Source: Methanolobus bombayensis
GTDB taxonomy: Archaea; Halobacteriota; Methanosarcinia; Methanosarcinales; Methanosarcinaceae
DNA: 64,000 nucleotides
Assembly (NCBI RefSeq): GCF_017873415.1
Contig: NZ_JAGGKD010000001.1
Coordinates: 124,001 to 188,000, forward strand
Direction: 5' to 3'
The notes under the pieces are model-generated. The model did no database searches and had not been told where the DNA came from. It saw nothing but the letters and a program-made list of their open reading frames with translations. Below, in pieces: positions 33,405 through 35,565 of this stretch (position 1 is the first letter of the stretch; each line of letters begins with the position of its first letter). The position numbers and the translations under genes are program-made.

Positions 33405-34511
33405 TTATATCATTACTGATAATATATCATCGGGTCGCGCTCTTCTTACAATTCCACTTATTGTTTCCCTTATCCCTGTGAGATTGTTAGAGTTCCCGTT
33501 AATGATCATTATTTTTGATTTATTTCCTTCCAGAATAGAACCTGTTTTCTCAAGTCCTAATATTGTTGCACCCATAAGTGTACACATCATAAATACTTGT
33601 CTGTCATCTATACCAAAAATTTTGGATAACATTTCCATCTCCGAGAACATGTTTGCTGAATTAAGCATTACGTTGTCGGTTCCCACTGCCACTTTTATGC
33701 CTTCATCAAGCATTTTTGTCACAGGTGCCATCCCTACTTCTGTTATAAAGTTTGATCTGGGGCAAACAACTATAGGTATATCATTTTCTGAAACTTTTTT
33801 GAGATCCTGTTTTTCTGCATGGGTCATATGAATAAGTATGTCGGGATCCAGTGACAGTGCCTTATCTATATCACTCCGGTCATTCTCTCCTGAATGTATT
33901 GCAAATGTTGCGCCATGTTTTGAAGCTTGTTCCCTTGCAGTTTCCAGTATGCTCATGTCCATGTCATTAGTACCACTCATTCCAAGGCCATCAGCATTTG
34001 CAAGCAAGTCGTGCAATTCAGCACTAAGCTTGTCTTCATCCTCTGTTTGCACGGGTCTGGCAAATATTCTTTCTTCTATCTCTGATGAATTAAGGGCTTC
34101 TTTTAGAAGATTGATTCCGTTGATGCCACCTTCTCTGAAATCTGCAAAGGCACATGTTCCTGTATAATTCATGTCACATATCGAACTTTTCATAGCTCCG
34201 ATCATTTCATCACGCGGTGTGCTGTTCAATATGCGGTGTTTAAGTCCGTCAGGTGGTTTAACAAGCTGACCCAGATCTCTTTTGACATAGTGTCCGATGG
34301 TTTCACCAAGTTCAGGATCCTTGCATACAGAGTCTCCTATATGGGTGTGTGCATTTACAAAACAGGGTGCGATGATTAGTTGTGAATCGGTTTTTTTTTC
34401 ATGCACTTCCTTGATGATACCGTCATCTATGACAATATAACCCTCAATGACCTCTGCATCAGGTCCGTATATTATTTTACCGGATATCGTTTGTTCCCAG
34501 GACATGGACAT
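33405..34511 (-). CDS. Amidohydrolase (deaminase/chlorohydrolase-like)
   Basis: 368 aa metal-dependent hydrolase: HxH in NAHTHIGD, later histidines in AIHSGEN and IHMTHAEK, and the late Asp in VGTDNVML. It resembles the SAH/MTA deaminase and chlorohydrolase branch, which removes amino groups from nucleosides or related compounds. The substrate is not certain. It diverges from the structured RNA at about 34609. Confidence 0.85.
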   Translation of the reverse strand: MSMSWEQTISGKIIYGPDAEVIEGYIVIDDGIIKEVHEKKTDSQLIIAPCFVNAHTHIGDSVCKDPELGETIGHYVKRDLGQLVKPPDGLKHRILNSTPRDEMIGAMKSSICDMNYTGTCAFADFREGGINGINLLKEALNSSEIEERIFARPVQTEDEDKLSAELHDLLANADGLGMSGTNDMDMSILETAREQASKHGATFAIHSGENDRSDIDKALSLDPDILIHMTHAEKQDLKKVSENDIPIVVCPRSNFITEVGMAPVTKMLDEGIKVAVGTDNVMLNSANMFSEMEMLSKIFGIDDRQVFMMCTLMGATILGLEKTGSILEGNKSKIMIINGNSNNLTGIRETISGIVRRARPDDILSVMI

Positions 34512-34586
34512 GAATTAATTGTTTTAATCCTTTATAAGCACATATCAGGTATGCACTCATTAAGTCAGTGTTTTCAAAACGTCATC

Positions 34587-34593
34587 TTTATAT
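34587..34593 (+). promoter_or_regulatory. TATA box of the 34.6-kb RNA gene
   Basis: TTTATAT centred near 34590 predicts transcription starting near 34612-34616, at or just inside the 5' strand of the closing helix of the RNA (34609). Confidence 0.5.
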
Positions 34594-34608
34594 GCCTGAC
34601 CTGTAGTA

Positions 34609-34797
34609 GATAATCATGCGTATTGTTAGGTCCTTGCATGAGAGCATGGCAGAGCCTATCTGTGATTGTATAGACAACCTCAATACGGAACACTGGATAG
34701 TGCGATAAAGCCTGTCACGAGGGAAACCGGGAAGGACAGCGGAAAATCCAATAGGATGATCTTCCGGAGTTAGTGCGCCAGACGACAGCATTATCCT
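34609..34797 (+). ncRNA. Structured RNA of unknown type, about 190 nt
   Basis: No protein frame explains this region. Helices seen by eye: closing GATAAT..TGC (34609-34619) with GCATTATC (34788-34797); CGTATTG (34619-34625) with CAATACG (34681-34687); AGGT/ACCT just inside; hairpin CATG-AGAG-CATG; hairpin CACT-GGAT-AGTG (34691-34702); CTGTC (34712-34716) with GACAG (34735-34739) capped by GG-GAAA-CC; CGGAA (34740-34744) with TTCCG (34762-34766) enclosing ATCC-AATA-GGAT. A TATA box lies upstream and a T-run (34813-34817) downstream. It does not show the conserved cores of RNase P RNA or SRP RNA. It may be a free ncRNA or a leader element of the DUF167 gene 57 nt downstream. Confidence 0.6.
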
Positions 34798-34853
34798 TCT
34801 TCTCATTCGGGTCTTTTTATTTGATCGATCTTTATATGGAGAATCTGGCAACA

Positions 34854-35177
34854 ATGTCTTTTGAGGATGCTTTAAAAAAGGTTGATTCCGGGGTCATTAT
34901 TGACATTGAGGTAACGCCGGGATCAAAATTTCTCTCTGTACCGAGTGGCTATAATCCCTGGAGAAAACGAATTGAGGTTCGTTTATCTCAGAATGCTCAG
35001 AAAGGAAAAGCAAATGAGCAACTTATTGCTGCATTAGCAGAGCTATTCGGACTTCGTAATTCTGATGTTTCTTTTGTTAACGGGATGCATAATTCAAAAA
35101 AATCACTTCTTTTGCAGGATGCTGACCATTCTCATGTTACTGAAGTTCTCAGGCATAAACTGTTTGATGATTCCTGA
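34854..35177 (+). CDS. DUF167/YggU-family protein
   Basis: 107 aa from ATG 34854, with ATG 34836 as an alternative. Small alpha/beta domain with the family pattern VTPGSK..., LSQNAQKGKANEQLI and DVSFVNG. Function unknown; widely conserved in archaea, bacteria and eukaryotes. It immediately follows the structured RNA. Confidence 0.88.
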   Translation: MSFEDALKKVDSGVIIDIEVTPGSKFLSVPSGYNPWRKRIEVRLSQNAQKGKANEQLIAALAELFGLRNSDVSFVNGMHNSKKSLLLQDADHSHVTEVLRHKLFDDS

Positions 35178-35289: not shown

Positions 35290-35370
35290 ATGGATGAATA
35301 TTTCGAAAACCTGGTAGAAAGAGCAAACTACTACGAACAGTTTGAAGAAGTCGTTCGCTATTACAAGTAA
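35290..35370 (+). CDS. 26-aa acidic small protein, unknown
   Basis: ATG 35290 follows GAGGTG (35278-35283) by 6 nt; stop TAA at 35368-35370. The product is acidic and aromatic (starts MDEYFENLVERANYY, ends VVRYYK), with spacing compatible with one amphipathic helix. Its last four codons and stop form the 5' arm of a 13-bp stem. Small regulatory proteins of this size exist in Methanosarcina (for example sP26, which acts on glutamine synthetase), but no relationship is claimed. Confidence 0.6.
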   Translation: MDEYFENLVERANYYEQFEEVVRYYK

Positions 35371-35449
35371 TTTCATTACGCCTGTCGTAACGAACCCCTC
35401 CAATCCCGAAACGTTTGCTTTCGATTGCGACAGGTCTTACTTGTAATAG
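35358..35449 (+). ncRNA. Large multi-part hairpin overlapping the small ORF end
   Basis: CTATTACAAGTAA (35358-35370) pairs perfectly with TTACTTGTAATAG (35437-35449). Inside, CCTGTCG (35381-35387) pairs with CGACAGG (35428-35434). Inside that, CAATC (35401-35405) pairs with GATTG (35423-35427), and GAAA with TTTC closes a 7-nt loop. A T-rich tract follows (35456-35475). It could be an elaborate terminator or the 3' domain of a dual-function RNA. Confidence 0.6.
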
Positions 35450-35565
35450 TAATCTATTTTTAACTTTGTTTTATTTAATGTTTTCAAAGGCCATGCTTTA
35501 ATTAAATGAAATGTAATTCTCAATTCGATTTATTTACTAATTAAAAAGCAACGGATTTTATCTAA

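Follow-up and report, generated by a model that had tools for sequence, protein, structure and literature searches.

Archaeal box H/ACA sRNAs have a set of defining features (PMC7991803, PMC4652768, PMC2584109). In Haloferax, three sites have been assigned to two H/ACA hairpins, with HP1 responsible for 2621 and HP2 for both 1956 and 1958 by alternative pairing, and these hairpins are related to stems II and III of Pf7 (PMC2584109). Pf7 / Pab40 (HgcG, RF00064) of Pyrococcus and Afu4 of Archaeoglobus are likewise multi-hairpin H/ACA sRNAs, in which the third hairpin guides modification of the E. coli U1915 equivalent (PMC2584109, PMC4652768). The equivalent helix 69 uridines of eukaryotes are guided by the H/ACA snoRNAs U19 and (in yeast) snR191 (PMC2584109), which can be regarded as functional analogues; eukaryotic H/ACA RNAs, however, have no kink-turn and carry an H box between their hairpins (PMC7991803), unlike the RNA considered here.

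This RNA is encoded in a stretch of 64,000 nucleotides from Methanolobus bombayensis (the window), and on its sequence it is very probably a two-hairpin archaeal box H/ACA guide sRNA for 23S rRNA U2586 and for U1917 and/or U1915 of helix 69. It shares with HP1 and HP2 of Haloferax and Haloarcula (Hvo1, Hvo2; PMC2584109, PMC4652768) the order of its two hairpins, the 23S sites that they are predicted to target (E. coli 2586; 1915, 1917) and the alternative pairing of hairpin 2. Compared by published description rather than by alignment, it differs from HP1/HP2 in its short spacer and in a helix over the second ACA box. Pf7 has three hairpins instead of two, and its Rfam model (HgcG, RF00064) gave no match at E <= 10 in 34300-35100.

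A structured RNA between the amidohydrolase and DUF167 genes

The gap in question is flanked by an amidohydrolase gene on the minus strand (PF01979) and a DUF167 gene on the plus strand (PF02594), and was originally predicted to hold a structured RNA gene of unknown type, either an archaeal ncRNA or a leader regulator. Of the elements named in that prediction, the TATA box, the perfect 7-bp stem (CGTATTG/CAATACG), the closing helix (GGATAGTGC/GCATTATCC) and the downstream T-run are all present (Table 1), while there is no support for a tetraloop hairpin at the supposed GAAA-capped stem, the bases of which are those of the hairpin 2 guide pocket (34719-34726).

Folding of the single sequence gave -53.5 kcal/mol (z = +0.34 versus shuffles, i.e. 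no better than chance), and on neither strand did the single sequence stand above its shuffles in folding energy. It is because of the comparative evidence that the structured RNA can be considered real; folding energy alone would not support one. Sequence search found homologues in 55 of 60 related genomes (a few of them as a weak match only), mostly as one strong copy per genome and with identity down to ~70% in the other families of the order. When 47 distinct homologues were aligned, 95.0% of the cells of a 39-pair structure were paired, versus 89.3% in shuffles and 29-38% when the structure was slid, 20 of the 39 pairs showed two-sided changes, and on no measure did any of 500 shuffles reach the real value, although the structure was read from the alignment and then tested by counting, so that the test leans towards it. 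An RNAalifold consensus was dropped, as it missed the closing helix and the hairpin 2 lower stem and paired the hairpin 2 guide bases with each other. Covariation was among the checks that had been proposed for the original prediction, of which the structured RNA is thus upheld (by covariation and homologues), whereas the unknown type gives way to the box H/ACA anatomy and targets set out below.

In most Methanosarcinaceae and in one further family the RNA is directly followed by the DUF167 gene on the same strand, which is what would be expected of a cis-acting leader or riboswitch of that gene. In two other families of the order, however, DUF167 does not adjoin the RNA, which is equally conserved there, and no conserved alternative structure overlapping the DUF167 gene start was found. 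A leader is therefore very improbable, and of the two options originally offered it is the archaeal ncRNA, as a gene with its own promoter, that is borne out. We infer its expression from the TATA box, which is conserved 29-34 nt upstream of hairpin 1.

Two hairpins with kink-turns and ACA boxes

Both halves of the RNA have the anatomy of an archaeal H/ACA guide: a lower stem, a pocket and an upper stem, a canonical kink-turn, an ACA/ANA box at a spacing of 14-16 nt, and bipartite complementarity to a target. The lower and upper stems of both hairpins covary. Core numbering is used below, in which position p corresponds to window position 34615+p.

Table 1. Features of the predicted guide RNA gene in window coordinates.
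Feature	Position	Strand	Evidence or remark
Predicted two-hairpin H/ACA sRNA, ~180 nt	34615..34797 (approximate ends)	+	Homologues, covariation, phylum-wide model matches
TATA box (TTTATAT)	34586..34592 (approximate)	+	29-34 nt 5' of stem P1 in most of 47 homologues
Hairpin 1, lower stem P1 (core 4-10/66-72)	34619..34687 (34619-34625 / 34681-34687)	+	Covariation
Hairpin 1, 5' guide arm GGUC (core 14-17)	34629..34632	+	Pairs GACC 3' of U2586-A2587 of 23S rRNA in 10/10 relatives
Kink-turn 1, 5' strand GA-G	34640..34642	+	A26, G27 invariant; G27-C45 paired in 47/47
Kink-turn 1, bulged strand C-UGU-GA	34660..34665	+	C45, U48, G49, A50 invariant
Hairpin 1, 3' guide arm AACCU	34676..34680	+	Pairs GGGUU 5' of U2586; AACC invariant in 47 homologues
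ACA box 1 (core 75-77)	34690..34692	+	Both A invariant; middle base C in nearly all homologues
Closing helix Pc, 5' strand GGAUAGUGC	34695..34703	+	7-11 bp in most Methanosarcinaceae, compensatory changes
Hairpin 2, lower stem (core 95-103/158-168)	34710..34783 (34710-34718 / 34773-34783)	+	91.8-99.3% of cells paired
Hairpin 2, 5' guide arm GAGGGAAA	34719..34726	+	GAGGG(U) pairs (A)CCCUC of helix 69
Kink-turn 2, 5' strand GA-C	34735..34737	+	G120, A121 invariant; C122-G139 paired in 47/47
Kink-turn 2, bulged strand G-GAU-GA	34754..34759	+	U142, G143, A144 invariant
Hairpin 2, 3' guide arm GUUAGU	34769..34774	+	UAGU-ACUA (U1917 mode), GUUA-UAAC (U1915 mode)
ACA box 2 (core 170-172)	34785..34787	+	Invariant in 47 homologues
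Closing helix Pc, 3' strand GCAUUAUCC	34788..34796	+	Same compensated helix
T-rich stretch, possible terminator	34809..34820 (approximate)	+	Read from sequence; exact form not conserved

In hairpin 1, 97.9% of the P1 cells are paired and four of the seven pairs show two-sided change. A pocket opens on both sides above this lower stem and is followed by an irregular upper stem, with a kink-turn in which the tandem G-A pairs are formed by G25 A26 with G49 A50, next to the closing pair G27-C45 and a bulge of U46 G47 U48. ACA box 1 follows two nt after the lower stem and lies 14 nt from the first base of the 3' guide arm; its middle base is free to vary, which is also the case in known ANA boxes.

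Hairpin 2 is built along the same lines. Its lower stem is a perfect 9 bp in Methanoperedens-type copies, with compensatory changes (GCCUGACAC/GUGUCAGGC, GCCUGGCGC/GUGCCAGGC, ACCUGACAC/GUGUCAGGU), and its upper stem (core 112-117/147-152) likewise has compensated pairs. The kink-turn consists of G120 A121 with G143 A144, the closing pair C122-G139 and the bulge G140 A141 U142. In the window, the distance between the 3' guide arm and ACA box 2 is 14 nt in the U1917 mode and 16 nt in the U1915 mode, while in Methanoperedens-type copies the 14 nt spacing applies to U1915.

By analogy with the known archaeal H/ACA RNP, L7Ae would bind both kink-turns, and each lower stem with its ACA box would be a docking site for Cbf5, Nop10 and Gar1, after which each pocket would pair with both sides of a 23S rRNA uridine for conversion to pseudouridine by Cbf5, with hairpin 1 presenting U2586 and hairpin 2 U1917 and/or U1915. 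The pseudouridylation, like the expression of the RNA, is predicted here from sequence. Matches to Cbf5, Nop10 and Gar1 are found in the genome of the window. The sole Gar1 match (G000:C12:37375-37635) contains one in-frame TGA, which could stem from the alignment at an end, from a sequencing error or from damage to the gene.

Predicted targets in 23S rRNA

As the genome's own assembly gave no rRNA match, the rRNA operons of ten relatives were used for the target search. E. coli numbering was set on an E. coli 23S gene a few nt longer than standard (offset +3 at helix 69 and +5 in domain V), and landmark-based numbers are given.

For hairpin 1, 406 universally conserved U columns were scanned and compared with 200 permutations of the guide letters. 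The two best columns were U2555 (A-loop) and U2586 (peptidyl-transferase centre), with scores reached in 0/200 permutations. The raw score is higher for U2555, which has the top raw complementarity in the ten relatives (7 + 5 pairs in close relatives) and lies 16 nt from the ACA box, i.e. within the 14-16 nt range, so that the RNA might be an H/ACA guide of which hairpin 1 modifies U2555 instead of, or besides, U2586. However, the extra bases by which U2555 gains its pairs (A59, C60) are not kept in distant copies or in one family of the order, whereas the AACC arm for U2586 is. The pairing with U2586, by contrast, uses GGUC (14-17) and AACCY (61-65), pocket bases that vary little or not at all, and places the target 14 nt from the ACA box; moreover, U2586 is known to be pseudouridylated in H. 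marismortui. Because the extra U2555 bases change in other families, U2586 is preferred. U2555, whose pairing is not conserved beyond close relatives, was rejected as the main target of hairpin 1, and a role for it is unlikely.

The arms of hairpin 2 fit two uridines of helix 69, with GAGGGU + UAGU for U1917 and GAGGGUUA + GUUA for U1915. The 5' arm reads GAGGGU in most other genera; in the genus of the window it reads GAGGGA, which leaves an A-A mismatch beside the target and makes the complementarity weaker. In seven relatives outside the GAGGGA group, chosen after the result had been seen, U1917 ranked first (0/300 permutations). In all ten relatives it was best when a third unpaired residue was allowed (3/300 permutations) and only third under the strict rule of two unpaired residues (76/300 permutations), the latter because of the GAGGGA of the window's genus. 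A third unpaired residue is used for Haloferax Hvo2, yet has been reported to be unfavourable in vitro (PMC4652768).

The predicted sites coincide with the three pseudouridines of Haloarcula marismortui 23S rRNA (1956, 1958 and 2621, equal to E. coli 1915, 1917 and 2586). Against known families, the only match in the window at Rfam 15 gathering scores is a tRNA, and around the gap nothing of relevance appeared at E up to 10, so that the Rfam comparison proposed with the original prediction left the RNA without a family. The statement that it is neither RNase P RNA (RF00373) nor archaeal SRP RNA (RF01857) holds as well, both being ruled out, with family-model matches elsewhere in the genome. 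The lack of any Rfam match even at E <= 10 would suit a structured ncRNA of a new class without relation to H/ACA guides, as would some invariant bases that guide pairing alone does not explain (e.g. CCUUG after the hairpin 1 5' arm). Such a class, however, would need two kink-turns, two correctly spaced ANA boxes and two pockets fitting known pseudouridine sites to have arisen by coincidence, and is very improbable.

The closing helix and the distribution of the predicted guide

With a covariance model built from the order of the window, full-length matches were found throughout the phylum (218 of 393 genomes). A GC-rich sequence and a long inter-hairpin spacer, as described for haloarchaea, mark some of the copies, which probably represent the haloarchaeal form. 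Among named records, copies were confirmed in Methanolobus, Methanosarcina and Methanoperedens; bacterial matches to the short pattern used on those records were discarded as chance. A plasmid search gave nothing. One genome of the phylum (G060) has two strong copies (C24:65087-65262, E = 5.6e-27; C9:181877-182053, E = 2.2e-25), compared to a single copy in nearly all others.

The closing helix Pc is an unusual feature of the lineage: it encloses ACA box 2 in most Methanosarcinaceae, is reduced to 2-4 bp elsewhere in the order, and in distant copies is not above chance. It is conceivable, though doubtful, that, by gaining Pc, the guide of Methanosarcinaceae acquired a variant of the H/ACA architecture particular to this lineage, with the hairpin 2 ACA box held in an internal loop (GAUAAA opposite ACA) and the 3' ACA presented inside a helix. 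If so, Pc would perhaps shield the 3' end or order the two Cbf5 complexes.

Further along the window, at 35292-35456 (plus strand), a 26-codon ORF (MDEYFENLVERANYYEQFEEVVRYYK) is followed by nested inverted repeats (CTATTACAAGTAA...TTACTTGTAATAG and CCTGTCG...CGACAGG). This element is conserved in sequence, peptide and CCCTCC-containing loop in 19/19 searched genomes of the window's genus, while blastn gave no match to it in other families. Either a small-protein gene whose 3' end is structured or a further small RNA may lie here.

Judged by its sequence, the RNA between the amidohydrolase and DUF167 genes is a new, un-catalogued RNA of a known type, i.e. the methanogen version of the guide described in salt-loving archaea; a paper naming it in Methanosarcina was not found in the open literature, which is no proof of absence. 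It would fill an annotation gap, since this guide RNA, widespread in a large archaeal phylum and usually present as a single copy, goes unrecognised by Rfam 15. The alignment lets evolution show the choice between alternative targets (U2555 or U2586; U1915 or U1917), and the predictions can be tested: three pseudouridines would be expected at the catalytic centre and the main inter-subunit bridge of the ribosome, in methanogens for which genetic systems exist.
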